From contig NZ_AMGO01000068.1 of NCBI RefSeq assembly GCF_000299575.1, positions 62,001 through 126,000 on the forward strand: DNA of 64,000 nucleotides, read 5' to 3'. The notes under the pieces were generated by a model. That model made no database searches, was not told where the DNA came from, and saw nothing but the letters and a program-made list of their open reading frames with translations. The translations under genes and the position numbers were made by a program. Of this stretch, positions 1 to 16,887 are shown in pieces. The stretch comes from Oceaniovalibus guishaninsula JLT2003. GTDB taxonomy: Bacteria > Pseudomonadota > Alphaproteobacteria > Rhodobacterales > Rhodobacteraceae. Position 1 is the first letter of the stretch; each line of letters begins with the position of its first letter.

Positions 1-716
1 CGACCGAACATTACCGCGCCGTCTGGGTCGAGAACGGGTTTTACCGCAACTTCATCAACTCGATGATCGTCACCGGCGGCGTCGTCACGATCAGCCTGAC
101 GGTGGGCACGCTGGCGGGATACGGTCTGGCGCGGTCGGGGTCGAACCTGGCCTTCTGGCTGCTGATCGCGGCGCTGATCTTCCGCGCCCTGCCCCATTCG
201 GTGCTGGTCGCGGGCTATCTGCCGGTCTTCATCAATTCGGCCGAGATCCTGCGCCCCATCCTCGGCGACGCGGCCCCCACGCTTTACGGCCAGCCCTTGG
301 CGGTCATCATGGTGCTGGTGGCGATCAACCAGCCCTTCACGATCTGGATGCTGCGCAGTTTCTTCCAGTCCATCCCGATGGAGCTGGACGAGGCCGCGCG
401 CGTCGATGGCTGCACCCATTTCCAGGCCTTCCGCCGCGTCATCATGCCGGTGATGTGGCCCGGCGTCATCACCACGGGGCTGTTCAGCTTCCTTCTGGGC
501 TACAACGACTTTCTGGTGACTTCGCTGCTGCTGGATTCGCAGAACCAGACGATGGTTCCGGCCATAGCCGGCTATTTCAACCGCGAGACGACGACCACCG
601 ATCAGGTCGAGGCGATCGCTGCCGCCGTCAGCATCACCGCGCCGCTGTTCCTGCTGGTCATGGTGTTCCAGCGCCAGATCGTCAGCGGGCTGACGGCGGG
701 CGCGGTCAAGGGATGA
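1..716 (+). CDS. Carbohydrate ABC transporter permease, MalG type (5' end outside window)
   Basis: Inner-membrane permease subunit of a sugar-type ABC importer. The open frame runs in from the left edge (codons in phase from base 3) and ends at 716, so the N-terminus is missing; an internal ATG at 63 is unlikely to be the start because coding continues upstream with an NFINS segment typical of MalG proteins. The visible part has about five hydrophobic segments and the EAA loop (DEAARVDG...F...VIMPVMWPG) that docks on the ATPase. The ATPase, partner permease and binding protein must lie to the left. The start of the TRAP binding-protein gene follows 14 bases after the stop, so the two importers look co-transcribed. 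Confidence 0.88.
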   Translation, partial: TEHYRAVWVENGFYRNFINSMIVTGGVVTISLTVGTLAGYGLARSGSNLAFWLLIAALIFRALPHSVLVAGYLPVFINSAEILRPILGDAAPTLYGQPLAVIMVLVAINQPFTIWMLRSFFQSIPMELDEAARVDGCTHFQAFRRVIMPVMWPGVITTGLFSFLLGYNDFLVTSLLLDSQNQTMVPAIAGYFNRETTTTDQVEAIAAAVSITAPLFLLVMVFQRQIVSGLTAGAVKG

Positions 717-730
717 AAAGGGAGAGACGA

Positions 731-1711
731 ATGAGATACGCAACGATCCTTGGCGCGGGGCTGATCGCCGCCGCGACGGGCGCGCAGGCGGAAACCACCA
801 TCCGCATCGGCCATGCCACGCCCGAAACGTCGCCCATCCATCAGGCGCTGACCTATTTCGAGGAGGAGCTGGAAAAGCGGTCGGACGGCGAGATGCAGGT
901 CGAGATCTTTCCGGGCGGCCAGCTTGGCAGCGTGCAGGAGATGACCGAGCTGGTCCAGTCGGGCAACATCACCATGACCACCGGCGCGTCGGTGCTGCTG
1001 TCCTCGACCGTGGACCAGTTGGCGATCCTCGACCAGTTCCTGCTGTTCGACGATGTGGATCAGGCCCGCGCGGTGCTGGACGGCCCCGCCGGCGACGCGC
1101 TGAGCGCGGCGATGGAGGAACGCGGCCTGAAGAACATGGGCTTCATGGAGCTGGGGTTCCGCAGCTTCACCAACAGCCGCGCGCCGCTGGACAGCTATGA
1201 CGCCTTCGCGGGCCTGCGGATGCGGTCCGCCGACAACCCCATCGCCATCGCCGCCTGGCGGTCCGTCGATGCGGTGCCGGTACCGCTGGCCTGGGGCGAA
1301 ATCTATTCCTCGCTTCAGCAGGGGCTGATCGACGGGCAGGAAAGCGCGCTGAGTTCGATGGTGGTCGAACGGTTCTACGAGGTGCAGGATTACGTTTCGC
1401 TGACCGAACACATCTATTGGCCGGAATTGTGGCTGGCAGATCTGAACTGGTTCAACGGCCTGACCGAAGACGAACAGGCGCTGGTGATGGAGGTTGCCGC
1501 CGAGACGGTCGAGCGCCAGCGCCAGATCGCGGCCGACCTGAACGCCGCGACGCTGGAGCAGCTGAGGGCCGAGGGGGTGGAGGTCAACGAGCTGCCTGCC
1601 GAAGACAAGCAGAAGCTGGGCGAGACGATGAACGCCGCGATCGAGCCGGACATCCGCGCCAAGGTCGGCAATGCGTTCTACGACGACTTCATGTCCAACC
1701 TGAACCGCTGA
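731..1711 (+). CDS. dctP: TRAP transporter solute-binding protein, DctP family
   Basis: Periplasmic receptor of a TRAP (Na+-driven, ATP-independent) importer for a small organic acid. Of 326 aa, about 20 form a signal peptide (MRYATILGAG...AQAE). The mature part begins with TTIRIGHATPETSPIHQAL, as in DctP proteins, and contains LGFRSFTNSRAP and GLRMRSADNPI, the region with the conserved Arg that pairs with a ligand carboxylate. The ATG at 731 follows a GGAGAGACGA ribosome site. The small and large membrane subunits follow directly. The ligand cannot be told from sequence. Confidence 0.93.
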   Translation: MRYATILGAGLIAAATGAQAETTIRIGHATPETSPIHQALTYFEEELEKRSDGEMQVEIFPGGQLGSVQEMTELVQSGNITMTTGASVLLSSTVDQLAILDQFLLFDDVDQARAVLDGPAGDALSAAMEERGLKNMGFMELGFRSFTNSRAPLDSYDAFAGLRMRSADNPIAIAAWRSVDAVPVPLAWGEIYSSLQQGLIDGQESALSSMVVERFYEVQDYVSLTEHIYWPELWLADLNWFNGLTEDEQALVMEVAAETVERQRQIAADLNAATLEQLRAEGVEVNELPAEDKQKLGETMNAAIEPDIRAKVGNAFYDDFMSNLNR

Positions 1712-1726
1712 CGGAAGGGCGAAGCG

Positions 1727-2218
1727 TTGCGCGCGTTGGAAAAATGGTTCGAACCGACAGTGATCGTCGCCATGCTGGGCGCGATCATCGTGCTGGTTTT
1801 CGCCGACGTGATCGCGCGCTTCGCCTTCTCGACTTCCATCGCCGTCGCGAACGAGCTGGCGCGCCTGTCCTTCGTCTGGATGATCTATTTCGGCGTCAGC
1901 TATGCCATCCGCGAACGCCGCCACATGCGGGTGACGGTGATCCTCGACATGCTGCCCCAAGGGCTGCGGCGCTGGGTCTTCGCATTGTCCGAGGCGGTGT
2001 TCCTGATCTATTCGGTGGCGGTCTGCTGGCTGGGCATCGTCATCACCCAGCAATCGCTGGACCGGGGCAAGATCCTCAGCTCGACCGAATGGCCCACGGC
2101 GGTGCTTTACGCGGCGATCGTCTTTTCGGGCGGGCTGAGTGCCGCGCGGCTGGTCCATTCGCTGTGGCGGGTGCTGGCGCGGGGCGATCTGCGCCTCGGG
2201 CCGCAGACGGATGTCTAG
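1727..2218 (+). CDS. dctQ: TRAP transporter small permease, DctQ family
   Basis: Small membrane subunit of the TRAP importer, 163 aa with four hydrophobic segments. Typical DctQ features are FADVIARFAFSTSIAVANEL near the first loop and the RRHMRVTVILDMLP stretch. The start appears to be TTG at 1727, after GGAAGGGCGAAGCG; no in-frame ATG fits the family N-terminus. It lies 15 bases after dctP and 3 bases before dctM. Confidence 0.9.
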   Translation: MRALEKWFEPTVIVAMLGAIIVLVFADVIARFAFSTSIAVANELARLSFVWMIYFGVSYAIRERRHMRVTVILDMLPQGLRRWVFALSEAVFLIYSVAVCWLGIVITQQSLDRGKILSSTEWPTAVLYAAIVFSGGLSAARLVHSLWRVLARGDLRLGPQTDV

Positions 2219-2221
2219 GCG

Positions 2222-3514
2222 ATGACGACCGCGATCCTTTTCGGCAGCTTCTTCCTGCTTCTGGCCATCGGGGTGCCCATCGGCATCGCGCTGGGATCGG
2301 CCAGCCTGCTGGCCATCGCCTATATCCCGTTCCTGTCCTTCGATCTTTACGCGTTGGGGCTGGTTTCGGGGATCGACAGTTTCACGTTGATCGCGGTGGT
2401 GCTGTTCACGCTGGCGGGCAGCCTGATGGCGCAGGGCGGCATTTCGCGACGGCTGGTGGCGGTGGCCGACCGCGCCTTCGGCCGCGCGCCGGGCGATCTG
2501 GGGACAGTCACGATCATGGCGTGCCTGTTCTTCGCCGCGATCTCGGGCACGGGCAGCGCCACGGTGGCGGCCATCGGTCTGGCGATGATCCCCGCCCTGG
2601 TCGAACGCGGCTATGACCGCGCCTATGCCGGGGCGATGGTGGCCAGCGCGGGCGGTCTGGGCGTGATGATCCCGCCATCGGTGGTGATGATCGTCTATGC
2701 GGTGGCGGCGGGCGTGTCGGTGACGGCACTGTTCATGGCCGGCATCGTGCCGGGCTTCGTCATCGCGCTGTCGCTGATCGCCTACAACGTCTGGAAGCGG
2801 CGCGGCATCCCCCCTTCGGACACGGTGCTGACCGCCGCCGGGGGCAGCCTGTGGTCCGCGCTGAACCAGGCCAAGCTGGCGCTGGCCATGCCCATCGTCG
2901 TGCTGGGCGGCATCTATTCGGGCATCGTGACGCCGACCGAAAGCTCGGCCGTGGCGGTCGTCTATGCGCTGATCGTCAGTTGCTTCGTCTACCGCGAATT
3001 GCCGTTCCACGCGATCCCGCGGATGATGCTGGATTCGGCGCTGCTGGTTTCGGCGGTACTGGTCATCATCGGCGCGTCGGTCGCGTTCGGGCGCATCATC
3101 GCGCTGGAGCGGATCCCCACGGAATTGGCGCAATTCGTGCTGTCGCTGACCGACAGCCGCCATGTCGTCCTGCTGGCCGCCATCGTGCTGCTGCTGATCG
3201 TCGGCACGTTTCTGGAAACGCTGGCCGCCATCGTCATCCTGACGCCGGTGCTGCTGCCGATCATGCTGAGCCTGGGGGTCGATCCGGTGCATTTCGGCAT
3301 CGTGATGATCGTCGCGCTGGCCATCGGCTTCGTCACGCCGCCCCTGGGCGCCAACCTGTTCATGGCGGCGCAGGTGGGGCAGATCCCCTTCGACCGGATC
3401 GCGGCCCGCATCCTGCCCTGGGTCGTGACGATGATCGTGGCGCTGCTGGTCATCGCGTTCGTGCCGTGGCTGACGCTGGTGCTGCCGCAACTCTTTCTCG
3501 ACTATGGAGGCTGA
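2222..3514 (+). CDS. dctM: TRAP transporter large permease, DctM family
   Basis: Translocation subunit of the TRAP importer, 430 aa with about 12 hydrophobic segments. Hallmarks are GVPIGIALGSASLLAI at the N-terminus, AAISGTGSATVAAIG, GGLGVMIPPSVVMIVYA and GFVTPPLGANLFMAAQV near the C-terminus, which match the DctM scaffold. It completes the DctPQM set and ends two bases before the start of the first NTF2-like gene, whose ribosome site (GGAGG at 3507-3511) lies inside this gene. Confidence 0.94.
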   Translation: MTTAILFGSFFLLLAIGVPIGIALGSASLLAIAYIPFLSFDLYALGLVSGIDSFTLIAVVLFTLAGSLMAQGGISRRLVAVADRAFGRAPGDLGTVTIMACLFFAAISGTGSATVAAIGLAMIPALVERGYDRAYAGAMVASAGGLGVMIPPSVVMIVYAVAAGVSVTALFMAGIVPGFVIALSLIAYNVWKRRGIPPSDTVLTAAGGSLWSALNQAKLALAMPIVVLGGIYSGIVTPTESSAVAVVYALIVSCFVYRELPFHAIPRMMLDSALLVSAVLVIIGASVAFGRIIALERIPTELAQFVLSLTDSRHVVLLAAIVLLLIVGTFLETLAAIVILTPVLLPIMLSLGVDPVHFGIVMIVALAIGFVTPPLGANLFMAAQVGQIPFDRIAARILPWVVTMIVALLVIAFVPWLTLVLPQLFLDYGG

Positions 3515-3515
3515 C

Positions 3516-4061
3516 ATGAAGGGCGCCCGCCCCGAACAGGCCGTGCTGACGCGCGACGCCGACCTGACCAAGACCGACGAGACGCGCCGCGTGATCGAAG
3601 GCATGGTGGACGGTCTGAACGACCACCGGATCGACGATATCGGCCAGTTCTTCGCCGACGATTTCCGCTGGATGGGCAATCAGGGCTGCGGCACCAAGAC
3701 CGGCCTGCGCGAGTTTCAGGAAAACTGGCAGCGGCCCTTTCAGGCGGCGTTTTCCGACAAGGTCTGCGTGGACGAGGCGCGGCTGTTCATGGGCGAATGG
3801 GCCGCCGCCTTCGGCCGTCAGGAGGCGACCCATTCCGGCCCCTTCATGGGGCTGGCCCCCACGGGCCGGCGCGTGACGATCCGCTACATGGATTTCTGGC
3901 GCGTCGAGGACGGACGCATCGCCGACAACTGGGTGATGGTCGATTTCCCGCATGTGCTGGCCCAGCTTGGCCACGACGTCTTTGCCGGCGAGGGCTGGGA
4001 GGCCTTCGACCGCGGCGAGCGCACGCCGCCCCGGCCCGAACCCCAAGGAGAAGCGCGATGA
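3516..4061 (+). CDS. NTF2/SnoaL-like protein (ester cyclase-like), single domain
   Basis: 181 aa cone-fold protein of the SnoaL/polyketide-cyclase superfamily, probably cytoplasmic with no signal peptide. Visible features are [20 protein letters not shown] at the start of the fold and the C-terminal strand pair [20 protein letters not shown]. That closing motif recurs in the second half of the protein encoded at 5383-6435, so the two are paralogues. The ATG at 3516 is preferred over the in-frame one at 3504 because GGAGG lies 4 bases before it. The stop overlaps the next start as ATGA. The reaction is unknown; members of this fold include cyclases, isomerases and hydrolases. Confidence 0.8.
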
Positions 4062-5386
4062 CCGTCGAATACCTCAAGCGCGGCAAGTCCGAAACCGAAC
4101 GCGGCGAGGACGATGCCAAGACCCGCAAGATCGTCGAGCAGACGCTGGCCGATATCGAGGCGCGCGGCGATGCCGCCGTGCGCGCGCTGTCGAGGAAGTT
4201 CGACGATTACGAACCCGACAGCTTCCGCCTGACCGAGGCCGAGATCGAGGCGCTGATCGGCAAGCTGTCCCGGCAGGAGCTGGCCGACATCCGCTTCGCG
4301 CAGGCACAGGTCAAGGCCTTCGCCGAGGCGCAGCGCGCGTCGATGACCGATATCGAGGTCGAACCGATCCCCGGCGTGATCCTGGGCCACCGCAACATCC
4401 CGGTGCAATCGGTGGGCTGCTATGTGCCGGGCGGCAAGTTTCCGATGGTCGCCAGCGCGCATATGTCGGTGGCCACGGCGGCGGTCGCGGGCGTGCCCCG
4501 CATCGTCGCCTGCACGCCGCCCTTCCGCGGCGAGCCGAACCCCGGCGTGATCGCCGCCATGCATCTGGGCGGCGCGCACGAAATCAACGTGCTGGGCGGC
4601 ATCCAGGCCATCGGCGCCATGGCCATCGGCACCGAGACGTTGGCGCCGGTGCACATGCTGGTCGGTCCCGGCAACGCCTTCGTGGCCGAGGCCAAGCGGC
4701 AGCTTTTCGGGCGGGTGGGGATCGACCTGTTCGCCGGGCCGACCGAAACCATGGTGATCGCCGACGATACCGTGGACGGCGAGATCTGCGCGACCGACCT
4801 GCTGGGGCAGGCCGAACACGGATACAATTCGCCCGCCGTCCTTGTCACCAATTCGCGCCGGCTGGCCGATGAGACGCTGGCCGAGATCGACCGCATCCTG
4901 ACGATCCTGCCCACCGCCGACACCGCGTCGGTATCCTGGCGCGACTACGGCGAGGTGATCCTGTGCGACACCTATGACGAGATGCTGGCCGTCGCCGACG
5001 ACATCGCGTCCGAGCATGTTCAGGTGATGACCGACCGCGACGACTGGTTCCTGGACAACATGACCAGTTACGGCGCGCTGTTCCTGGGGCCGCGCACCAA
5101 CGTGGCCAACGGCGACAAGGTGATCGGCACCAACCACACGCTGCCCACCAGCAAGGCGGGGCGCTATACCGGCGGGCTGTGGGTCGGCAAGTTCCTCAAG
5201 ACCCATTCCTATCAGAAGATCACCACCGACGCGGCGGCGGCGAAGATCGGCGCCTACGGCTCGCGGTTATGCATGCTGGAAGGGTTCGTCGGCCATGCCG
5301 AGCAATGCAACCTGCGCGTCCGCCGCTATGGCGGGGTGAACGTGCCCTATGGCCAGGGCGCCCCGGCGACGGAGGCGGCCGAGTGA
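4058..5386 (+). CDS. Histidinol-dehydrogenase family enzyme, HpsN-like NAD-dependent dehydrogenase
   Basis: 442 aa zinc- and NAD-dependent alcohol-to-acid dehydrogenase of the HisD superfamily. HisD-type metal and active-site elements are visible: [10 protein letters not shown], the [10 protein letters not shown] segment (Gln and His), TNHTLPT and the C-terminal EGFVGHAEQ His. It is not near any his gene but sits beside a TRAP transporter and NTF2-like proteins, and the N-terminus ([10 protein letters not shown]) and [14 protein letters not shown] resemble the sulfopropanediol dehydrogenase HpsN branch. A catabolic hydroxyl oxidation is therefore more likely than histidine synthesis. It is coupled by 4-base overlaps on both sides. 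Confidence 0.85.
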
Positions 5387-6435
5387 CCGACCGGCATACC
5401 CGGATGAAGGCGGCCTTCGCCCCGGTCGGGGCGGCGATGCGCGACTTCGACGAAAACGGGGTGCGCGCGGCGCTGGATGCCGTGGCGGCACCGGCCGCGG
5501 TGTTCCGGCTGGCGCATCCGTTCGGCACGGTCGAGGGCGCAGGCGCCTTCTATGACGCGGCCCTTGCGCCGCTTTTCGCGGCGTTCCCCGATCTGGAACG
5601 GCGCGACTGGATCGTCATGGCCGGGACCACGCCCGAAGGGGCGGACTGGCTGGGCTGCTGCGGCTGCTATACCGGGTTGTTCGCGCGCCCCTTCCTCGAC
5701 ATTCCGCCGACCGGACATTTGGCGCGGATGCGGTTTCACGAATTCTTCCGCTTCGAGGACGGGCGCGTCACCGAGATGCAGGCTGTCTGGGACATTCCCG
5801 AACTGATGATGCAAGCGGGCGCCTGGCCGATGGCGCCGTCGCTGGGGCGCGAGGGCATCGTGCCCGGCCCCGCGACGCAGGACGGGCTGGTGCCTGGTCC
5901 GCGCGACGCGGCCCGGTCGGATGCCAGCCGCGATCTGGTATTGGACATGCTGGCGCATATGATACGCCACCCGGCCCAGGGCGGACCCGAGGCGATGGAG
6001 ATGCCCCGCTTCTGGCATCCGCGCCTGTCGTGGTACGGCCCGGCGGGCATCGGCACGGCGCGCGGGATCAGGGGGTTCCGCGACTGGCACCAGATCCCGT
6101 TCCTGCGGGCCATGCCCGACCGCGGGGCGGACCGCGCGGGGCTGGATTTTCACGCCTTCGGGGACGGCGATTATGCCGCCGTCACCGGCTGGCCCAACAT
6201 GCGCCAGACCGTGACCGGCGACGGCTGGCTGGGCATCGCGCCCGCGGGCCAGACGGTCGCGCTGCGCAGTCTGGACTTCTGGCGGATCGAGCGCGGCCTT
6301 ATCCGCGAGAACTGGGTGCTGGTCGATCTGCTGGACATGTGGCGGCAACTGGGCGTCGACGTGCTGGCGCGGATGCGCGCGTTCAACAAGGCGCGCGGCG
6401 GTTTCGACACCGAAACCGGGCGGGCTGCGGCATGA
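5383..6435 (+). CDS. Tandem NTF2/SnoaL-like protein (two domains)
   Basis: 350 aa with two cone-fold units of about 150 residues each. The first ends around [20 protein letters not shown] and the second around [19 protein letters not shown]. Each carries the F.R.E.GR/L...E..... closing strand pair of SnoaL-like proteins. The second half matches the single-domain protein at 3516-4061 in this motif and in the following QLG.DV, which suggests duplication and fusion. The start is GTG at 5383, overlapping the previous stop as GTGA; no better ATG keeps the first domain complete. Function unknown. Confidence 0.78.
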
Positions 6436-7190
6436 CCTTGCCGCGCACACCGTCGTTCCGGCTGGACGGCCGCCGCGCGCTGGTCACGGGCGCCTCGTCG
6501 GGCATCGGGCTGGGCTGCGCCGTGGCGCTGGCCGAGGCGGGGGCGGACGTCACCTGCGTCGCCCGCCGCGACGGCCCGCTTAACGAGGCGGTGCAGGCGA
6601 TGCGTGCCGAAGGCTGGCAGGCCCGCGCCCAGGCGGCCGATGTGACCGATCCCGAAGCGCTGGACGCGCTGTTCGCCCGGCCTTTCGACGTGGTGGTGAA
6701 CGCGGCCGGCATGGCGCGCCACGCCCCGGCGATGGACACCGATCCCGCCGATTTCGACGCGGTGATGTCCGTGAACCTGCGCGCGGCCTATTTCCTGTCG
6801 CAACGCGCGGCGCGGACGCTGCGGGATGCGGGGCGGGGCGGGTCGATCGTGCATGTGTCCAGCCAGATGGGCCATGTCGGCGGGCTGGACCGCGCCGTCT
6901 ATTGCGCGTCCAAGCACGGGGTCGAGGGCATGGTGAAGGCCATGGCGATGGAATGGGGGCCGCTGGGCATCCGCATCAACACGGTCTGTCCGACCTTCAT
7001 CCGCACGCCGCTGACGGAATCCACCTTTCAGGATCCCGGCAAGCGGGCCTGGCTGGAACAGAAGATCAAGCTGGGCCGTGTCGGCCGGGTCGAGGACGTG
7101 ATGGGCGCGGTGCTTTATCTCGCGTCGGATGCGTCGGCGCTGGTGACGGGATCGGCGCTGATGGTGGACGGGGGCTGGACGGCGGGATGA
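6432..7190 (+). CDS. SDR family NAD(P)-dependent oxidoreductase
   Basis: 252 aa classical short-chain dehydrogenase. The nucleotide-binding motif is TGASSGIG, followed by NAAG, the catalytic Ser in HVSSQMG, YCASKHG (Tyr-x-x-x-Lys) and the usual C-terminal GSALMVDGGWTAG. Start and stop overlap the neighbours by 4 bases. Together with the HpsN-like enzyme it gives the operon two dehydrogenase steps. The substrate is unknown; the SDR fold alone does not define it. Confidence 0.9.
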   Translation: MTLPRTPSFRLDGRRALVTGASSGIGLGCAVALAEAGADVTCVARRDGPLNEAVQAMRAEGWQARAQAADVTDPEALDALFARPFDVVVNAAGMARHAPAMDTDPADFDAVMSVNLRAAYFLSQRAARTLRDAGRGGSIVHVSSQMGHVGGLDRAVYCASKHGVEGMVKAMAMEWGPLGIRINTVCPTFIRTPLTESTFQDPGKRAWLEQKIKLGRVGRVEDVMGAVLYLASDASALVTGSALMVDGGWTAG

Positions 7191-8209
7191 GGGGCGGACA
7201 GGTCACGGCAAGCGACGTGGCCCGGCAGGCGGGGGTCAGCCGGTCGGCGGTCAGCCGCACCTTCACCCCCGGTGCGCCGGTCTCGGACGCGACGGCGCAA
7301 AAGGTCCGCGCGGCGGCGGCGGCGCTGGGATACCGCCCCAACGCGCTGGCCCGGTCGCTGATCACCGGGCAAAGCCGGATCGTCGGGCTGGTCGTCGCCT
7401 ATCTGGAAAACTTCTTCTATCCGCAGGCGCTGGAGAAGCTGTCGAATGCCTTGCAGGCGCAGGGCTATCACGTGCTGGTCTTCCTCGCCTCGCAGGATCG
7501 CGGGCATATCGACGACGTGGTGGACGAGATCCTGGATTATCAGGTGGCGGGCATCATCGCCGCGTCGGTGGCCATGACCTCGGATCTGGCGGTGCGGTGC
7601 CGGGCGGCGGGCGTGCCGGTGGTGCTGTTCAACCGCGGGCAGGACATCGACGGGGTGGCCAGCGTCACGTCGGACAACGCCGAAGGGGGCCGCGTGCTGG
7701 CCCGGTTCCTGGCGGCGGGCGGGCACAGGCGCATCGGCCATATCGCGGGATGGGACGGCGCCTCGACCCAGCGGGACCGCGAGGCGGGCTTTCGCGCCGG
7801 CCTGGCCGAGGTGGGGCTGGACCTTTTCGCGCGCGAGGCGGGCGAGTTCAACGCCGACGAGGCGCGCCGCGCCGCCCGTGCCATGTTCGCCGGGCAGGCC
7901 CGCCCCGACGCGGTGTTCGTCGCCAACGACCATATGGCCTTTGCGGTAATGGACGTGCTGCGGTTCGAACTGGGCCTGTCGGTGCCCGACGACGTGTCGG
8001 TGGTGGGGTTCGACGATGTGCCCCCCGCCGGCTGGCCCGCCTATGCGCTGACCACGATCCGCCAGCGCGCCAACGCGATGGTCGAAAGGACGGTCGAGAT
8101 CCTGTTGCAGCAGATCGCCGCCCCGACCGCCCCCGCCACCCGCGCGATCATCGACGCGCCGCTGATCATACGCCGCTCGGCCAGGATACCGGAAGGATGG
8201 ACACAATGA
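7187..8209 (+). CDS. LacI family transcriptional regulator
   Basis: 340 aa. Residues 5-50 form a LacI helix-turn-helix (SDVARQAGVSRSAVSRTF) with the hinge helix GYRPNALARSLITG, followed by a periplasmic-binding-protein-like sensor domain (GLVVAYLENFFYP, VFVANDHMAFAVMDVL, DDVSVVGFDDVPPA). Such proteins usually repress their own catabolic operon until a pathway ligand binds. It is embedded mid-operon and coupled on both sides by ATGA, so it is probably autoregulated. No clear operator could be placed, because the operon's promoter lies left of the window. Confidence 0.94.
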   Translation: MRGGQVTASDVARQAGVSRSAVSRTFTPGAPVSDATAQKVRAAAAALGYRPNALARSLITGQSRIVGLVVAYLENFFYPQALEKLSNALQAQGYHVLVFLASQDRGHIDDVVDEILDYQVAGIIAASVAMTSDLAVRCRAAGVPVVLFNRGQDIDGVASVTSDNAEGGRVLARFLAAGGHRRIGHIAGWDGASTQRDREAGFRAGLAEVGLDLFAREAGEFNADEARRAARAMFAGQARPDAVFVANDHMAFAVMDVLRFELGLSVPDDVSVVGFDDVPPAGWPAYALTTIRQRANAMVERTVEILLQQIAAPTAPATRAIIDAPLIIRRSARIPEGWTQ

Positions 8210-9201
8210 CGATGCAGGGCTTCGACCCGAAATTCCGCGATTTTCCCGACTACATCATCGGCATCACCAAGGAGATCTGGGAAGATCGCGGGGTCGCCAC
8301 GCTGCACGACTATTACGGCAAGAACATCGTCGTGCGCTCGCCCGCGTCCGTGGTGGTGGGCAACCGGGGCGTGATCGCGGCGACGCTGGCGACGCTGGCC
8401 GAGTTTCCCGACCGCACCCTTTACGGCGAGGACGTGATCTGGTGCGGCGCGCCCGAACAGGGCATGCTGAGTTCGCACCGCATCATGTCGCATGCCACGC
8501 ATCTGGGCGACGGCGTATTCGGGCGCGCGACCGGCACGCGGCTGCGCTATCGGATCCTCGCCGATTGCCATGCCAGGGACAACGCCATCGACGACGAATG
8601 GCTGATCCGCGACCAGGGCGCCATCGTGCGGCAACTGGGATGGGATCCGCGCGACTTCGCCCGCGACCTGATCGCGCGCGAGGGGGGGCCGGACAATTGC
8701 GTGCGCCCCTGCACCCCCGAGACGGACATGGCCGGTCCCTACGGGGGACGCGGCAACGACGACGAATGGGGCGCGCGCTATGCCGATATCCTGACGCGCA
8801 TCATGGGGGCCGACCTGACGGTAATCCCGCGCGAATACGACCGCGCCGTGCAGTCGCATTATCCCGGCGGCAGGGAGGATCATTCGCTGCAACCCGTCGA
8901 TCGCTTCTGGATCGGCCTGCGCGCATCCTTTCCGTCCGCCCGGTTCGAGATCCATCACCGGATCGGACGCGAGGATGCCATGATGCCCCCCCGCGCCGCC
9001 CTGCGGTGGAGCCTGACGGGCGCCCATGACGGCTGGGGCGCGTTCGGCCGCCCGACCGGCGCGCAGGTGCATGTCATGGGCATCAGCCATGCCGAGTTCG
9101 GGCCCTGGGGCCTGCGGCGCGAATTCACGCTTTACGACGAGGTGGCGATCTGGAAGCAGATCCTGCTGGCCACCGGCGCCGCCGACGCGACCCATTCCTG
9201 A
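8206..9201 (+). CDS. NTF2/SnoaL-like protein, third copy
   Basis: 331 aa, with two cone-fold-sized halves recognisable by size and by stretches such as RDFPDYIIGITKEIWEDRG, which resemble SnoaL-like proteins of catabolic clusters. Two in-frame ATGs exist, at 8197 and 8206. The later one is chosen because GGAAGG (8191-8196) is well spaced before it and it overlaps the lacI stop as ATGA. It lacks the DFWR...ENWV motif of the other two NTF2-like proteins, so it is a more distant member. Function unknown. Confidence 0.75.
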   Translation: MTMQGFDPKFRDFPDYIIGITKEIWEDRGVATLHDYYGKNIVVRSPASVVVGNRGVIAATLATLAEFPDRTLYGEDVIWCGAPEQGMLSSHRIMSHATHLGDGVFGRATGTRLRYRILADCHARDNAIDDEWLIRDQGAIVRQLGWDPRDFARDLIAREGGPDNCVRPCTPETDMAGPYGGRGNDDEWGARYADILTRIMGADLTVIPREYDRAVQSHYPGGREDHSLQPVDRFWIGLRASFPSARFEIHHRIGREDAMMPPRAALRWSLTGAHDGWGAFGRPTGAQVHVMGISHAEFGPWGLRREFTLYDEVAIWKQILLATGAADATHS

Positions 9202-9223
9202 CGCATAACGAGGAGAGACGACG

Positions 9224-10216
9224 ATGACCCCGCAGGACATGAGCGCCCGGATCGTGCGCTATGGCGAATTGCAGCCCTGCAAGACCGCCTTCATCGACGC
9301 GCATACGCCCGGTTCCAACCAGAAGGAAAACTTCACCATCATCGGCGGTGGCGTGTCCGAAAGCGCCGACCAGCACGTTCACATCACTATCCCCCACGGC
9401 TTCAACATCGGGGCGGCGGGCCAGCCGCCGCGCTGCCGCAACAGCCTGCATTCGCATCGCACGGCCGAGGTGTTCTATGTGCTCAAGGGCCGCTGGCGGT
9501 TCTTTTGGGGCCGCTGGGGCGATGCGGGCGAGGTGACGCTGGAGGAAGGCGACATCATCAACATCCCCACCGGCATCTTCCGCGGGTTCGAGAATACCGG
9601 CACCGATTACGGAATGATCATGGCGGTGCTGGGCGGCGACGATGCGGGCGGCGGCGTGATCTGGGCGCCGCAGGTGATCGAGGACGCACGCGATCACGGG
9701 CTGGTGCTGGGCGAGAACGGCAAGCTTTACGACACCAAGAAGGGCCAGTCGCTGCCCGAGGGCGTCAAGCCCATGCCGGTGCTGACCGACGAGGAACTGC
9801 GCGACTTTCCCGAGCCCACCCCGGCCGAGGTGGTGCCGAACTTCGTGGCGCGGTATTGGGACATGATGAGCCTTGCCGACAAGGCGCCGGTGCAGGTCAT
9901 CGGCGAAAAGGGGATGCTGCGCGACCGGCCCGGATTCGAGGTGGGATTGCTCAACCACAATTCGGCCACGTCCGACATGCACAGCCACGATCGCCCGTCG
10001 GTCCTGATGCCGATGCGCGGACATTGGCGGGTGACGTGGGAAAACGGCGAGAGGGGCGAGGCGATCCTGGCGCCCGGCGACACGATGAGCGTGCCCGAAA
10101 ACCTGCGCCACACGGCCCAGCCGTCGATGACAGGCGAGGCGTCGCTGTTCCATGTCATCGCCACCGACGATCCCGCCGGCCCGACCCGGTGGACGGCCGA
10201 GAAGGACCGGCGATGA
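9224..10216 (+). CDS. Double cupin-domain protein
   Basis: 330 aa with two cupin barrels. The first, around residues 80-130, has HSHRTAEVFYVLKG and GDIINIPTGIFRGFEN. The second, around residues 245-320, has MHSHDRPSVLMPMRG and GDTMSVPENLRHTA. The His-x-His and later residues suggest bound metal in each half. Two-domain cupins include gentisate-type dioxygenases, but the usual ring-cleaving signature is not clearly present, so the activity is open. It starts 22 bases after the third NTF2-like gene with a GGAGAG ribosome site, and its stop overlaps the methyltransferase-like start. Confidence 0.82.
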   Translation: MTPQDMSARIVRYGELQPCKTAFIDAHTPGSNQKENFTIIGGGVSESADQHVHITIPHGFNIGAAGQPPRCRNSLHSHRTAEVFYVLKGRWRFFWGRWGDAGEVTLEEGDIINIPTGIFRGFENTGTDYGMIMAVLGGDDAGGGVIWAPQVIEDARDHGLVLGENGKLYDTKKGQSLPEGVKPMPVLTDEELRDFPEPTPAEVVPNFVARYWDMMSLADKAPVQVIGEKGMLRDRPGFEVGLLNHNSATSDMHSHDRPSVLMPMRGHWRVTWENGERGEAILAPGDTMSVPENLRHTAQPSMTGEASLFHVIATDDPAGPTRWTAEKDRR

Positions 10217-11331
10217 TCCGCACGACGCATACAGGCTCGCTCCCCCGGTCGCAGAAGGTGGTGGATTTTCTTTTCGCGCGGGAACGGGGGCAGGATTACG
10301 ACCCGCGCGCCTTCGACGCCGCCATGACGCAGGCGGTGTCGGAAACCGTCCGCCGGCAGGTCGCGGCGGGCATCGACATCGTGTCCGACGGCGAAACGTC
10401 GAAGATCAGCTATGCCACCTACGTCAAGGACCGCTATACCGGGTTCGACGGCGACAGCCCGCGCAACGCCCCCGCCGACCTCAAGCTGTTTCCGTCCTTC
10501 CTGAAGCGGATCGCCGACGAGGGCGGCACGCCGCAATACGCGCGCCCGATGTGCGTGGGCGAGGTGCGGTCGAAGGGGCAGGGCGAGCTGCAAAAGGACA
10601 TCGCCAACCTTCGGGTGGCGATGGACGCGCACGGGGCCGGACGGGGCTTCATGAACGCGGCCAGTCCCGGCGTGATCTCGCTGTTCCTGCAAAACGACTT
10701 CTATCCGACGCGGGACGCCTATCTGGCGGCATTGGCGGATGCGATGCGCGACGAATACCGCGCCATCGTCGATGCGGGGCTGGATCTGCAACTGGATTGT
10801 CCCGACCTGGCGCTGTCGCGGCACATGCTGTTCGCGGATCTGTCGGACGATGCATTCCTCAAGGTCGCCGCGTCGCATGTCGAGGCGCTCAATCACGCGC
10901 TGGACGGGCTGCCGCAGGACCGCATCCGCGTGCATATCTGCTGGGGCAATTACGAAGGCCCGCATGTCTGCGACATCCCGATGGAAAAGATGTTCGACAC
11001 GCTGATGTCCACCCGGTCGCGCTATGTCCTGTTCGAGACCTCCAATCCCCGGCACGGCCATGAATGGACGGTGTTCCGCGACCGCCGCGCCGACATCCCC
11101 GACGACAAGGTGCTGGTGCCGGGCGTGGTGGACACGACGACGAACTTCGTCGAGCATCCCGATCTGGTGGCCCAGCGTCTGCGCCATTTCACCGATATCG
11201 TCGGGGCCGAGCGGGTCGTCGCCGGGTCCGATTGCGGGTTCGGCACCTTCGCGGGCTTCGGCGCCGTCGATCCCGAGATCGCGTGGGCCAAGCTGTCGTC
11301 GATGGCCGAAGGGGCGGCGCGCGCGGCATGA
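10213..11331 (+). CDS. Free-standing MetE C-terminal-type zinc methyltransferase/alkyltransferase
   Basis: 372 aa, only the catalytic barrel of cobalamin-independent methionine synthase. It starts RTTHTGSLPRSQ as in COG0620 proteins. Probable zinc ligands are His and Cys in HICWGNYEG and Cys in GSDCGFGTF, with Glu in LFETSNPRHGHE. The N-terminal half of true MetE is absent. Relatives of this size include archaeal-type core methionine synthases and epoxyalkane:coenzyme M transferase, so the substrate may be any thiol. Its position in a catabolic operon argues for transfer to or from a thiol during degradation rather than methionine synthesis; this is inference. Confidence 0.83.
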   Translation: MIRTTHTGSLPRSQKVVDFLFARERGQDYDPRAFDAAMTQAVSETVRRQVAAGIDIVSDGETSKISYATYVKDRYTGFDGDSPRNAPADLKLFPSFLKRIADEGGTPQYARPMCVGEVRSKGQGELQKDIANLRVAMDAHGAGRGFMNAASPGVISLFLQNDFYPTRDAYLAALADAMRDEYRAIVDAGLDLQLDCPDLALSRHMLFADLSDDAFLKVAASHVEALNHALDGLPQDRIRVHICWGNYEGPHVCDIPMEKMFDTLMSTRSRYVLFETSNPRHGHEWTVFRDRRADIPDDKVLVPGVVDTTTNFVEHPDLVAQRLRHFTDIVGAERVVAGSDCGFGTFAGFGAVDPEIAWAKLSSMAEGAARAA

Positions 11332-12023
11332 TCCCCCTTGTCCTTCTTCCCGGCATGATGTGCGACGCGCGGCTGTTCGGGCCGCAGATCGCGCGCTTCT
11401 CGCGCAACAGGGCCGTGCATGTGGCGCCGGTGACGGGCTTTGACGACATGGGCGCGCTGGCGGCCGATGTTCTGGCCAATGCGCCGCCCCGTTTCGCGCT
11501 GGCGGGCCTGTCGATGGGCGGCATCGTCGCGATGGAGGTGCTGCGCCAGGCCCCCGACCGGGTGGACCGTATCGCGCTGCTCGACACCAACCCCAAGGCC
11601 GAGCCGCCCGCCTTTGCCGAGGCGCGCGAACCCCAGATCGCCCGCGTGCAGGACGGCGATCTGGCCGCCGTCATGCGCCACGAGATGATGCCGCATTATC
11701 TGGCGGACGGATCGGTCGAGGGCGCGATCCCCGATCTCTGCCTCGACATGGCGCTGGCGCTGGGGCCGCAGGTCTTCGTCCGCCAGTCGCGCGCGCTTCA
11801 GGCCCGACCGGACCAGCAGGCGGTGCTGGCCGCCGCGCGGCTGCCCGCGCTGATCCTGTGCGGGCGCCACGACCGGCTGTGCCCGTTGCACCGGCACGAA
11901 CTGATGCAGTCGCTGATGCCCCATGCGCGGCTGCGGGTGATCGAGGGGGCGGGGCATCTGCCGACGCTGGAAGCGCCCGAGGCGACCGGCGACGCGATGC
12001 AGGACTGGCTGGAGGAACGATGA
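11328..12023 (+). CDS. Alpha/beta-fold hydrolase
   Basis: 231 aa small alpha/beta hydrolase. LVLLPGMMCDARLF gives the oxyanion loop, GLSMGGIVAM the nucleophile elbow (Ser), ILCGRHDRLCP the acid residue (Asp) and GAGHLPTLEAPE the catalytic His. There is no signal peptide, so it is cytoplasmic. The MetE-like stop overlaps its start and its own stop overlaps the next start. It likely cleaves an ester or enol-lactone intermediate; the substrate is not known. Confidence 0.88.
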   Translation: MIPLVLLPGMMCDARLFGPQIARFSRNRAVHVAPVTGFDDMGALAADVLANAPPRFALAGLSMGGIVAMEVLRQAPDRVDRIALLDTNPKAEPPAFAEAREPQIARVQDGDLAAVMRHEMMPHYLADGSVEGAIPDLCLDMALALGPQVFVRQSRALQARPDQQAVLAAARLPALILCGRHDRLCPLHRHELMQSLMPHARLRVIEGAGHLPTLEAPEATGDAMQDWLEER

Positions 12024-12715
12024 CGCCCGACCTACTGGACCTGCTGCGCAAGGTCGACACGCCCACCGTCTGCAACGCCATCGAGATCGTGCAGGGCCGA
12101 CGCGGCTTCGACCGGTTCACCCGCGGCACGATGCTGTCGAGCGCGCCCGAAGCGGGTGCTATCGTCGGCCGCGCCCGCACCGCGCAGATCGCGGCCCTTG
12201 CCCCCAGCGACGAGCCGGCCGAGACGATCCGCGCCCGGCGCATGGCCTATTACCGCCACATGGCCGAAGGCGACGGTCCCGCTGTCGCGGTGGTCGAGGA
12301 TCTGGACGGCGCGGACGCCATCGGCGCCTTCTGGGGCGAGGTCAATACATGGGTGCACAAGGCGTTCGGCCTGTCGGGCACGCTGACAAACGGCGTCATG
12401 CGCGATCTGGGCGATCTGGCCCCCGGATATACCGTCATCGCGGGGTCGGTCGGACCCAGCCACGGCTTCGTCCATGTGCGCAGCGTGGCGCAGCCGGTGA
12501 CGGTGTTCGGCCTGACCGTCGCGCCCGGCGACTGGGTCCATGCCGACCGGCACGGCGCGGTCGTCATTCCCGACGACGTGCTGCCCGGCCTCAAGGACGC
12601 CATAGCGACGCTGTGGCGCACCGAAGCCATCGTTCTGGACGCCGCCCGCGACCCGCAATTCGACCTTGCCCGGTTCGAGAAGGCCTGGGCCGCGTTCGAG
12701 GCTGCGCGGACGTAA
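12020..12715 (+). CDS. RraA family protein (HMG/oxaloacetate aldolase-decarboxylase-like)
   Basis: 231 aa. The RraA/HMG-aldolase fold is recognised by TNGVMRDLGDL (the G...RD metal/carboxylate site) and GDWVHADRHGAVVIP. Members either inhibit RNase E or act as Mg2+-dependent 4-carboxy-2-oxo acid aldolases and oxaloacetate decarboxylases. The catabolic neighbours and retained Arg-Asp pair favour an aldolase or decarboxylase acting late in the pathway, releasing central metabolites. The start overlaps the hydrolase stop as ATGA. Confidence 0.86.
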   Translation: MTPDLLDLLRKVDTPTVCNAIEIVQGRRGFDRFTRGTMLSSAPEAGAIVGRARTAQIAALAPSDEPAETIRARRMAYYRHMAEGDGPAVAVVEDLDGADAIGAFWGEVNTWVHKAFGLSGTLTNGVMRDLGDLAPGYTVIAGSVGPSHGFVHVRSVAQPVTVFGLTVAPGDWVHADRHGAVVIPDDVLPGLKDAIATLWRTEAIVLDAARDPQFDLARFEKAWAAFEAART

Positions 12716-12775
12716 GCGCCCTTCGATCTTCCGCGCCGCGGTGCTACGGATGCGGCGATCGGGGGTGGTCGCGCG

Positions 12776-13669
12776 GTGGCGGTGTATCTGGGCGTCGATA
12801 TGGGCGGCACCGCGTCGCGGTGGGTGGCGCTGGACGAAAGCGGCGGGGTCGCGGCGCGCGGGCAGGGGCGCGGGGCAAGCGGGCTGATCCATGACGCGCC
12901 CGGCCTTGCGGCCTTCGACGGCGCGCTGGCCGACATCCGCGCCGCGCTGCCGGACCGGGCGATCGCGGCGCATCTGGGCATCACCGGCGCGGGATTTTCG
13001 CCCCATCCGCTGATCGAGGAACGGGTCGGCGCGGTGTTCGGCCTGCCGCGCGCGCGGTTCGGCTATTCCACCGACATCGTTCTGGCCTGGCACGCGGCCT
13101 TCCCGCAGGGCGGGGGCTGTCTGGTGTCGGCCGGGACCGGATCGGTCGGCATCTTCATCGATGCGGGCGGCGCGGCGACGGTCGTGGGCGGGCGCGGCGT
13201 TCTGGTCGATGACGGCGGATCGGGCGCTTGGATCGCCCTGCGCGCCATCGCGCGGCTGTTCCGTGTCATCGACGATCACGGGCATCCCGAGGGGGCGGAA
13301 CGCCTGGCCGCCGCATTGTTCACGGGCATCGGCGGCAGCGACCGCGACGCCCTGCGCGCCTTCGTTCATGGCGGGGATCGCGGCCGGATCGGAATGCTGG
13401 CGGTGCCCGTCGCCCAGGCGGCGCGGGCGGGCGATCCGCTTGCCCTTGCCGTGATCGAGGATGCGGGCGGCGAGCTGGTGCGCCTGGCGCGCGCGCTGCT
13501 GGGGCGCGGCGGCCCGGCGCCCGTCGCGTTCGTCGGCGGCGTTCTGGGGCTGCACCCCGCCATCCGCCGGCGGATCGAGCGCGACCTGGCCGGGACCGTC
13601 GCCTTCCCCCGCATCGACGCCGCGCTGCATGCGGCCCATATTGCCCGCCAGAAGGATCTGACTGCATGA
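12776..13669 (+). CDS. BadF/BadG/BcrA/BcrD-type ATPase, probable N-acetyl-amino-sugar kinase
   Basis: 297 aa ASKHA-fold kinase. The phosphate-1 loop is YLGVDMGGTASRWV, phosphate-2 is CLVSAGTGSVG, and GGRGVLVDDGGSGAWIALRAI follows, as in N-acetylglucosamine kinases of this family. The GTG at 12776 is the only start that keeps the first loop. It lies 60 bases after the RraA-like gene and overlaps murQ, so phosphorylation of an amino sugar before ether cleavage is the simple reading. Confidence 0.85.
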   Translation: MAVYLGVDMGGTASRWVALDESGGVAARGQGRGASGLIHDAPGLAAFDGALADIRAALPDRAIAAHLGITGAGFSPHPLIEERVGAVFGLPRARFGYSTDIVLAWHAAFPQGGGCLVSAGTGSVGIFIDAGGAATVVGGRGVLVDDGGSGAWIALRAIARLFRVIDDHGHPEGAERLAAALFTGIGGSDRDALRAFVHGGDRGRIGMLAVPVAQAARAGDPLALAVIEDAGGELVRLARALLGRGGPAPVAFVGGVLGLHPAIRRRIERDLAGTVAFPRIDAALHAAHIARQKDLTA

Positions 13670-14577
13670 CCACGACCGAAACCGCCTCGTCCCGTTTCCG
13701 CGAGATCGAGACCTGGGACAGTGCCGAGATGATGGATGCCATGATCGAGGGGCAGCTTGCCGCCATCGCCGCCGTCCGGTCGCAGGCGGCGATCATGGCG
13801 CAGGCGGTTGATGCGGCGGCAGCGCGGCTGGAACAAGGCGGCCGGCTGATCTATCTGGGCGCGGGAACGTCGGGGCGCATCGCCACGCTGGATGCCGCCG
13901 AATTGCTGCCGACCTTCGCCTGGCCGCCCGAACGGGCCGTGTCGCTGATGGCCGGCGGCAGCGCGGCCTATACCCAATCCATCGAAGGGGCCGAGGACGA
14001 CACCGAGGCGCCGGTCGAACGCCTTGCCGCGTTGGGGCTGACCGGCGACGACGTGGTGATCGGCGTCGCCGCGTCCGGGCGCACCCCGTTCGTGCGCGCC
14101 GGTCTTGCCCATGCGCGGGCGCAGGGCGCGCTGACCGTCGCGGTTGTGAACAACGCGGGCACCGCGGTGGCGGGCGCGGCCGAGATCGCCATCGTTCCCG
14201 AAACCGGCCCCGAAGTTCTGGCCGGATCGACCCGGATGAAGGCCGGAACCGCGCAGAAGGCCGTGCTGACCTGCCTTTCGACCGGCATCTTCCTGAAGAT
14301 GGGCTATGTGTATCGGGGCCGGATGGTGGAAATGGCGCCCTCGAACGCGAAGCTGCGCGAACGCGCGGTCGAGATGATCGCCGACCTTGCCGATGTCGCG
14401 CCGGACATCGCGGAAGCGGCGCTGCGCGACGGCGGCGATTCGATCAAGCGCGCGGTGGTGATGCTGAAACGCGGCGTCACGCCCGACGAGGCGGACGCGC
14501 TTTTGGTGGATGCCGGCGGGCGGCTTCATCGGGCGATCGCGCCGGGGTTTCAGGCCCAGTCGGCATCGGACGCATAG
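13666..14577 (+). CDS. murQ: N-acetylmuramic acid 6-phosphate etherase
   Basis: 303 aa SIS-domain lyase that splits the lactyl ether of MurNAc-6-phosphate to GlcNAc-6-phosphate and D-lactate. Visible motifs are LIYLGAGTSGRIATLDAAEL, the sugar-phosphate site GVAASGRTPFV, and ETGPEVLAGSTRMKAGTAQK, which are diagnostic of MurQ. Length matches the family. It is coupled to the upstream kinase and ends the operon. Its last 28 bases overlap, tail to tail, the sulfotransferase gene on the other strand. Confidence 0.94.
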   Translation: MTTTETASSRFREIETWDSAEMMDAMIEGQLAAIAAVRSQAAIMAQAVDAAAARLEQGGRLIYLGAGTSGRIATLDAAELLPTFAWPPERAVSLMAGGSAAYTQSIEGAEDDTEAPVERLAALGLTGDDVVIGVAASGRTPFVRAGLAHARAQGALTVAVVNNAGTAVAGAAEIAIVPETGPEVLAGSTRMKAGTAQKAVLTCLSTGIFLKMGYVYRGRMVEMAPSNAKLRERAVEMIADLADVAPDIAEAALRDGGDSIKRAVVMLKRGVTPDEADALLVDAGGRLHRAIAPGFQAQSASDA

Positions 14578-15491: not shown

Positions 15492-15523
15492 GCCATCCTT
15501 TCGGGTGCGCGTTGGGCCGTTTC

Positions 15524-16597: not shown

Positions 16598-16887
16598 GGC
16601 GGCTGATCTCCTGCGCTGTCGTGGATGAGGCCGTGGGTCGTCAAGAGGCCTGCCCTTCCGATGACGCTGCCGGCCCTACCCTTCGGCAACTGGCACCCGG
16701 CGAACCCCCGAGGGAGTGTGATCGGTCGAAGGCGCTTCGCCAAGCCCCTTACCGGATGACGTGTCATGTGCGACAAAGGATGCAGGGCGCGGACCCGCCG
16801 GGTTTCGGGCCTGCACGGGCGCGTTCCAGCGAAGAAGGTCATGATCCTGCCCCCGATCCGTCGAAAACAAGCAGGGCAAAGTCGGTC

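Follow-up and report, generated by a model that had tools for sequence, protein, structure and literature searches.

Among the described catabolic systems closest to the locus treated here are the degradation of 2,3-dihydroxypropane-1-sulfonate (DHPS), which uses the dehydrogenase HpsN and the tripartite ATP-independent periplasmic (TRAP) transporter HpsKLM, and the non-phosphorylative sugar-acid pathways, which are 2-keto-3-deoxy acid aldolase routes. The locus itself is a long operon at the start of a 64,000-nucleotide stretch of the Oceaniovalibus guishaninsula JLT2003 genome (the window; C68:62001-126000 on contig C68, NZ_AMGO01000068.1; genome of 2.9 Mb in 68 contigs), which an earlier sequence-only reading had put forward as an undescribed catabolic system. 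We found no description of it in open-licence PubMed Central (PMC) papers among the matches listed; other papers could hold one. Comparison across genomes establishes the gene set, its conservation, an enriched palindrome at cluster promoters, conserved residues that are presumably catalytic and an interchange of transporter, aldolase and lactonase types, and points to a cluster that is real, common and apparently undescribed, with a mechanism that can be drawn in outline only. We tentatively propose, with a confidence that stops just short of even, that the cluster is a catabolic regulon under LacI control and serves one small polyhydroxylated compound. This would most likely be a sugar acid, or else a sugar or cyclitol that is converted to one. 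Our guess is that this compound is released by aquatic phototrophs.

Gene content and conservation of the cluster

The long coupled catabolic operon described in the sequence-only reading held up. Its 16 genes, on one strand and in frame at the positions given for them, span window 3-14577, with MalG truncated by the window edge. All nine of the four-base ATGA/GTGA start-stop overlaps (4058, 5383, 6432, 7187, 8206, 10213, 11328, 12020 and 13666) were verified, and a tenth joins the MalG stop to the DctP start (ATGA) at 713. The operon extends 5' beyond the window, where MalK, a solute-binding protein gene and MalF stand ahead of MalG on the same strand (C68:58057-61559). MalF, MalG and DctQ were named by eye, position and annotated orthologues, without a profile scan, and the other families by profile scans. 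The genes, in window positions, are:

3..716, plus strand: MalG-like permease of a CUT1 sugar-type ATP-binding cassette (ABC) transporter; 5' end outside the window; orthologue annotated as a carbohydrate ABC permease
713..1711, plus strand: DctP, TRAP solute-binding protein; family scan and alignment with solved relatives
1727..2218, plus strand: DctQ, TRAP small permease; by position and eye, start codon uncertain
2222..3514, plus strand: DctM, TRAP large permease; TIGR00786
3504..4061, plus strand: SnoA1, single-domain SnoaL/NTF2-like protein; Pfam SnoaL, alignment
4058..5386, plus strand: HisD, histidinol-dehydrogenase-family enzyme outside the HpsN clade; profiles, residues, tree
5383..6435, plus strand: SnoB2, tandem SnoaL/NTF2-like protein; profile, residue conservation
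6432..7190, plus strand: SDR oxidoreductase; profiles, conserved S144-Y157-K161
7187..8209, plus strand: LacI-family regulator; profiles, palindrome analysis
8206..9201, plus strand: SnoC2, tandem SnoaL/NTF2-like protein; profile, predicted fold
9224..10216, plus strand: two-domain cupin (bicupin); profile, residue conservation, predicted fold
10213..11331, plus strand: MetE-C-like protein; profiles, residue conservation
11328..12023, plus strand: alpha/beta hydrolase; profiles, presumed catalytic triad
12020..12715, plus strand: RraA-like aldolase/decarboxylase; profile, motif
12776..13669, plus strand: BadF/NagK-like sugar kinase, a local extra; family scans, locus comparison
13666..14577, plus strand: MurQ-like N-acetylmuramic acid 6-phosphate etherase, a local extra; family scan, locus comparison

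The core of this set, comprising a HisD/HpsN-like dehydrogenase, an SDR, LacI, several SnoaL/NTF2 proteins, a bicupin, a MetE-C-like protein, an alpha/beta hydrolase and RraA, recurs in many other genomes of the Rhodobacteraceae and, in rearranged form, among sphingomonads, Alteromonadaceae, freshwater Burkholderiales and other groups. Across a sample of 198 same-family genomes from 197 genera, MetE-C (E 1e-40 or better) was present in 82 and the HisD subfamily (E 1e-150 or better) in 99, with 80 genomes holding both. HisD thus accompanies 80 of the 82 strong MetE-C matches versus 19 of the 116 other genomes (Fisher p 8.5e-34, uncorrected for relatedness), so that the association of these genes is not due to chance. 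The two lie within 12 kb of each other on one contig in 62 of 79 mapped genomes, for which contig positions were entered by hand (79 of the 80 genomes holding both genes). In wider samples a MetE-C relative (E 1e-60) was found in 72 of 385 genomes class-wide and in 26 of 398 phylum-wide.

Counts of the individual genes were taken over 85 loci, nearly all picked via MetE-C and clustered by script, so that the first count is high by construction: MetE-C 79, HisD 65, SnoC2 62, cupin 57, LacI 54, solute-binding protein 51, MalF 48, SnoB2 48, SDR 46, MalK 45, MalG 45, alpha/beta hydrolase 36, RraA 34 and SnoA1 25, the late genes being undercounted because many loci stop inside the cluster or carry little downstream sequence. 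Genes in the compared loci were called by a simple script that gives over-long starts, and two of the loci, L086 and L143, overlap at one genome place. Optional members among the 85 are an S-adenosylmethionine-dependent methyltransferase (10), a fuconolactonase-like amidohydrolase (9) and a GMC oxidoreductase (4). Where MetE-C is more distant (38-58% identical; 25 loci, L122-L146), HisD was seen only in L125, L132 and L135; rearranged sets with identical families occur at L120 together with L152, L121, L125 and L135, and SnoaL-type genes lie near HisD in 19 of 80 named HisD loci, the best 80 of at least 587. Matches at 79-82% identity lie on named plasmids of Ruegeria, Marinovum and Octadecabacter, and hosts of the full cluster include one coral isolate and one Arctic offshore isolate. 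A link to dimethylsulfoniopropionate was considered because dmdA adjoins the cluster on the Marinovum plasmid; dmdA was not seen at four other annotated cluster loci, and the two are treated as chance neighbours.

A predicted LacI operator and the transporters

A palindrome scan returned TTGCAnACGnnTGCAA at many of the cluster promoters. Its core, TGCAnnCGnnTGCA, is present in 67 copies in the 61 family loci, with at least one copy in 43 of them, versus at most 19 copies for each of the 23 other orderings of the half-site, a control that is not independent, since the palindrome was derived from these same loci. Sixty-six of the 67 core copies fall no more than 250 bases from the point where the match to a cluster gene starts (MalK for 42 copies, HisD for nine). 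The core occurs five times in the O. guishaninsula genome itself, two of these in the divergent promoter upstream of MalK, where a gap of 124 bases contains two LacI-type sites (C68:57951-58018); across this gap lies a divergent two-domain SnoaL gene and, judged by eye, a dihydrolipoamide-dehydrogenase-like gene. As an independent test we scanned 20 chosen genomes, setting aside sites in known cluster loci and exact copies of TTGCAACCGGTTGCAA, which left nine extra sites. Four of these (in G123, G173, G081 and G184) led to an unlinked MalK of the system, 74-77% identical. At three extra-site loci (L237, L238 and L240) MalK stands with LacI (60-64%) and SnoaL genes, and at another (L239) with a solute-binding protein and MalF, with no called LacI or SnoaL gene. 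The strict form of the site, TTGCAnACGTnTGCAA, matched the system at three of three extra sites, the other forms at one of six (G184 C1:3003340). The cluster is therefore probably one LacI-controlled regulon, with the predicted operator at its promoters. A scan with consensus promoters and terminators gave fewer matches than in shuffled sequence.

A different palindrome, TTGCAACCGGTTGCAA, occurs twice, about 4.3-4.6 kb apart, in the same-family genomes G049, G055, G075, G152 and G173. Where viewed (L266, L269 and L270; by eye) it adjoins another LacI-family gene and inositol-catabolism-like genes, which suggests a site of another LacI-family regulon.

The sequence-only reading had an organic acid entering by TRAP. 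A probable acid-binding TRAP receptor is indeed encoded, and that part stands; as the defining transporter TRAP does not, since close DctPQM (at least 58% identity) occurs in only one of the 61 family loci (L083) and one of 40 further loci (L116). MalK (at least 50% identity) is found in 39 of the 61. The kinase and MurQ, considered as pathway members, had no match in the 61 or the 40 compared loci, many of which end about 4 kb past MetE-C or sooner. By this comparison the TRAP genes, kinase and MurQ are local extras, and the usual transporter is a predicted sugar-type ABC system. Two types of that system occur, with a MalG that shares either 50-65% or 85-97% identity with the window MalG, and there are two gene orders. 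TRAP genes stand beside ABC genes in the window and L083, and without them in L116; a sodium:solute symporter and TonB receptor accompany the set in L120/L152 and L121 (TonB and the L121 symporter by eye), and a major-facilitator-like protein and TonB in L125 (both by eye).

The aldolase and lactonase types vary in a similar way. L152 and L125, in which RraA was not seen, carry an HpaI/GarL-type aldolase. In Ruegeria SCSIO 43209 the vicinity of the cluster holds SMP-30 and an aldolase/citrate-lyase gene, with no RraA annotated there. Among 80 named HisD loci, the best 80 of at least 587, an HpcH label appears in 12 and RraA in three, never both. We take these lineage swaps to mean that the pathway requires both the opening of a lactone or ester and an aldol-type cleavage, and that different enzymes can supply them.

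As for the substrate, the nearest solved relatives of DctP include 4p47, 7bbr, 4nq8 and 4p9k, and 4n8y, 4x8r and an isethionate TRAP receptor were also matched. In a ligand list compiled in PMC11668362 for a protein other than DctP, the ligands are 2-keto-3-deoxy-D-gluconate (7BBR), galacturonate (4N8Y) and glucuronate (4X8R), and pantoate or erythronate for others. According to the same paper, two Arg and one Asn contact the carboxylate in CxaP-like TRAP sugar-acid receptors; counted on our alignment, DctP holds two of these three contacts, both Arg, with Asn213 replaced by Ser. Taken together, LacI, the CUT1 ABC transporter, the sodium:solute symporter, the lactonase and pyruvate-aldolase partners and the DctP relatives point to a substrate that either is a polyhydroxylated acid or is oxidised to such an acid.

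Enzymes, a possible route and its alternatives

HisD belongs to the histidinol dehydrogenase family by its profile, metal ligands and catalytic Glu-His pair: Q251, H254, D353 and H413, which we take to be metal ligands from their counterparts in histidinol dehydrogenase, and the presumably catalytic Glu319-His320 are conserved in at least 98% of 121 HisD sequences. Outside the cluster, relatives of HisD adjoin TRAP, CUT2 ABC, 2-keto-3-deoxygluconate-kinase-like, DUF849-like, PdxA-like and further genes of sugar-acid type, and stand in other settings too (by eye). A second HisD, 45-48% identical, lies at or near the cluster in nine loci (L047, L054, L055, L063, L064, L078, L153, L218 and L247) with an amidase-like gene and, in most of them, another SnoaL-like gene. 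These genes may form a companion pathway that acts on an amide.

The SDR residues S144-Y157-K161 are conserved in 97% of 72 sequences and the presumed triad of the alpha/beta hydrolase, Ser62-Asp182-His210, in 95% of 42; the roles of these residues, like those named below for MetE-C and RraA, are our assumption. The RraA-like domain scores 61 bits against a cut-off of 24.5. RraA-type pyruvate aldolases carry a D-x20-R-D motif, and the protein here has Glu107-x20-Arg128-Asp129 (at least 95% of 38 sequences), with E in place of the first D. GalC, an aldolase of syringate breakdown discussed below, is presumably RraA-like as well. By family, then, two oxidoreductases, a hydrolase and an aldolase-family protein are present, in agreement with the two oxidations, hydrolysis and aldol or decarboxylation step of the sequence-only reading.

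Its cyclase, in the SnoaL sense, does not fit SnoA1. This protein has the NTF2/SnoaL fold family assignment, with Pfam SnoaL above cut-off, and scores 44.8 bits on NF033407, under the curated cut-off of 200; Val144, found in at least 95% of 30 sequences, aligns with SnoaL Asp121, which we take to be catalytic. We accordingly set aside an ester cyclase for SnoA1, the protein that this test covers, as distinct from the tandem proteins. SnoC2 is predicted to fold as a tandem NTF2 protein (mean pLDDT 93). Its top Foldseek rows are the tandem epoxide hydrolases Lsd19 and MonB, with poor superposition. Taken singly, its domains give similar Z values against SnoaL-like proteins, ketosteroid isomerase and limonene epoxide hydrolase. 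The cupin is modelled as a bicupin (mean pLDDT 88); HxHxxxE is conserved in domain 1 and the usual later metal-ligand His is absent. It matches quercetinase and oxalate decarboxylase with a VIA Z of about 20 over 226-252 residues and gentisate/salicylate dioxygenase at about 19, and, with seed proteins tying as well, no function follows from the fold.

In MetE-C the presumed metal ligands H241, C243, E275 and C341, together with E61 and D195, are conserved in at least 97% of 96 sequences. Pfam Meth_synt_2 scores above cut-off, and all the NCBIfam methionine-synthase models compared score below theirs (best 83.7 bits versus 406). No close MetE-C was found in six genomes that retain HisD and SnoaL genes:

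G007: ABC, SnoaL, cupin, HisD
G018: ABC, LacI, SnoaL-like, cupin, hydrolase, RraA, HisD
G064: ABC, LacI, SDR, SnoaL, HisD
G086: ABC, LacI, SDR, SnoaL, cupin, hydrolase, RraA, HisD
G115: ABC, LacI, SDR, SnoaL, cupin, HisD; genome 81% complete
G119: MalF, SnoaL, HisD on a 5.7-kb contig; genome 78% complete

Since these genomes retain much of the set, MetE-C is either accessory or replaced by an unrecognised gene; it seems dispensable, and we dropped both MetE-C as an obligatory member and thiol alkyl transfer as a necessary step, as the sequence-only reading had it. More remote homologues of MetE-C, from sphingomonads, Rhodococcus, haloarchaea and Pantoea, stand in other settings and do not fix the reaction. 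On the Novosphingobium and Sphingobium plasmids (L042, L043), a MetE-C relative precedes one NTF2 gene and an IclR regulator gene, with an aminomethyltransferase-family/methylenetetrahydrofolate reductase cluster 1-7 kb away.

In the route that we propose, the ABC system, here with TRAP also, would import the compound; the SDR would oxidise a secondary alcohol, giving a ketone, and HisD a primary alcohol, giving a carboxylate; and the NTF2-fold proteins may catalyse a dehydration, isomerisation or beta-elimination at the position adjoining the ketone, where the cupin would serve as an isomerase or dioxygenase. Hydrolases would open a lactone or ester, and RraA, or an HpaI/GarL-type aldolase in other lineages, would split a 4-hydroxy-2-oxo acid into pyruvate and a second fragment. 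MetE-C may provide an accessory step, perhaps passing a methyl group to a thiol, and LacI would release the promoter in response to the substrate or to an intermediate.

Several observations weigh against this route and the regulon behind it. Thirty-one of the 67 core palindromes lie inside called genes and 36 between genes by our crude calls, which we ascribe to the over-long starts; the other three sites in the O. guishaninsula genome (on C7, C38 and C46) have no cluster gene and look like chance occurrences; and five of the nine extra sites stand beside unrelated genes (in G075, G055, G081 C1, G123 C1:135398 and G184 C1:535365). The solute-binding protein of the ABC system resembles solved binding proteins weakly, a sugar-acid route offers no obvious role for MetE-C and the cupin, an IlvD or enolase-type dehydratase was not noticed by eye, with no dedicated search for either, and we infer the substrate class from partners and relatives. 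The same HisD subfamily, moreover, occurs at many loci that lack SnoaL genes. This last point would also be expected if two or more independent pathways were kept together, for example HisD-SDR-RraA and the SnoaL/ABC part, and these pieces do occur apart, the former in L154 and the ABC genes, mostly with LacI and SnoaL, in L237-L240. The separate pieces in G123 and G173 nevertheless both bear the palindrome, and we consider this arrangement unlikely. The palindrome misses moved it up slightly and took our confidence in the proposed regulon for a polyhydroxylated compound from even to just below. A little less likely again is that MetE-C performs the key step, in which a methylated substrate gives its methyl group to a thiol: the near-invariance of its presumed Zn ligands and homocysteine contacts (whose roles are likewise assumed) and the presence of HisD in nearly every genome with MetE-C would suit this, whereas the six genomes listed above, two of them incomplete, would not.

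The HpsN-like, sulfonate reading of HisD fared worse. Its best PDB matches are HpsN/DHPS dehydrogenases (48% and 49% identity), and the isethionate receptor among the DctP matches would fit a DHPS-type pathway. In our tree, however, the DHPS dehydrogenases 8v35 and 8wwe (55% identical mutually) pair outside a 91-row clade containing the window HisD, with SH-aLRT support of 98; this was a quick tree with a long-branch warning, in which sequences at 75-89% identity were thinned to 12. A sulfonate is therefore not indicated, nor is it by the sugar-type ABC system that is the usual transporter, and we keep HisD as an HpsN only as a weak and very improbable rival. Still more improbable, in our judgement, is the degradation of a methoxylated C7 cyclitol of the mycosporine/gadusol kind. 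HisD would oxidise the HOCH2-C(OH) group, an NTF2 dehydratase would aromatise the ring to an O-methylgallate-like compound, and the bicupin would cleave it; the alpha/beta hydrolase would then remove a methyl ester, with an NTF2 isomerase and RraA finishing as in the gallate route. Each step has a family precedent, gentisate/salicylate dioxygenases are among the tied cupin neighbours, and the coral and Arctic hosts would suit such a substrate. Excerpts of PMC12314914 also describe the SnoaL-like MgaD and alpha/beta hydrolase MgaC serving syringate breakdown with 4-carboxy-4-hydroxy-2-oxoadipate (CHA) aldolase. Against this, the cupin lacks its later metal-ligand His, partners of the sugar-lactonase type fit less well, and no paper was found among the open-licence PMC matches listed. 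Such a conversion, with cleavage and demethylation following HisD oxidation and NTF2 dehydration, would, in the slim chance that it is real, be the first bacterial route of its kind and let heterotrophs consume algal UV-screens.

Some neighbouring genes, all identified by eye, complete the picture. The operon is followed (window 14550-18084) by genes resembling those for sulfotransferases and glycosyltransferases on the minus strand and one resembling a polysaccharide pyruvyl transferase gene on the plus strand. Upstream of the window, a pair of short genes on the minus strand resembles a RES-domain toxin and an Xre-type antitoxin (C68:54584-55422; L010:10584-11422), and a second, glycerol-type-like ABC cluster (C68:47913-54309; L010:3913-10309) has two MalK-like ATPases and a 577-residue binding protein.

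Significance and relation to described systems

The joint presence of MetE-C and HisD in about four in ten of the same-family genomes (80 of 198) implies a common metabolite, and related sets are found in marine gammaproteobacteria, sphingomonads and freshwater Burkholderiales (among the best 80 of at least 587 HisD loci). Annotated orthologues carry merely the labels 'ester cyclase', 'histidinol dehydrogenase' and 'cobalamin-independent methionine synthase II', and in excerpts of PMC11762602 and PMC10653896 'ester cyclase' is BchE or a table entry. Naming the substrate would thus give functions to generically annotated genes, for which the predicted operator offers a starting point in regulon mapping.

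With DHPS degradation the cluster shares a HisD-family dehydrogenase, an SDR and a TRAP transporter. It differs in that its HisD lies outside the HpsN clade and in having a CUT1 ABC transporter, LacI, SnoaL proteins, a bicupin, MetE-C and RraA; a sulfonate-specific gene was not noticed in it, with no search aimed at one. Like the polyketide ester cyclases SnoaL and AknH, SnoA1 has the NTF2 fold and the Pfam SnoaL domain; unlike them it has Val for the presumed catalytic Asp, and the cluster sets such proteins, elsewhere as tandem domains, in a catabolic context. The MetE-C-like protein shares the H-C-E-C residues and the Pfam Meth_synt_2 domain with the MetE C-terminal domain and the core methionine synthases, from which its sub-cut-off NCBIfam scores and its place in a catabolic operon set it apart. 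The syringate/3-O-methylgallate route of Pseudomonas sp. NGC7 (MgaC, MgaD and GalC), as given in the excerpts of PMC12314914, also combines an alpha/beta hydrolase, a SnoaL-like isomerase and CHA aldolase; the cluster, unlike that route, has sugar-type transport and a sugar-type regulator, and a LigAB-type dioxygenase was not noticed. From the non-phosphorylative sugar-acid pathways it is distinguished by its NTF2 proteins, HisD and bicupin, and by the IlvD/enolase dehydratase that our inspection by eye, with no dedicated search, did not notice; with these same pathways it has in common a lactonase, an SDR, an HpaI/GarL-type or RraA aldolase, a LacI regulator and transporters for sugars or sugar acids.

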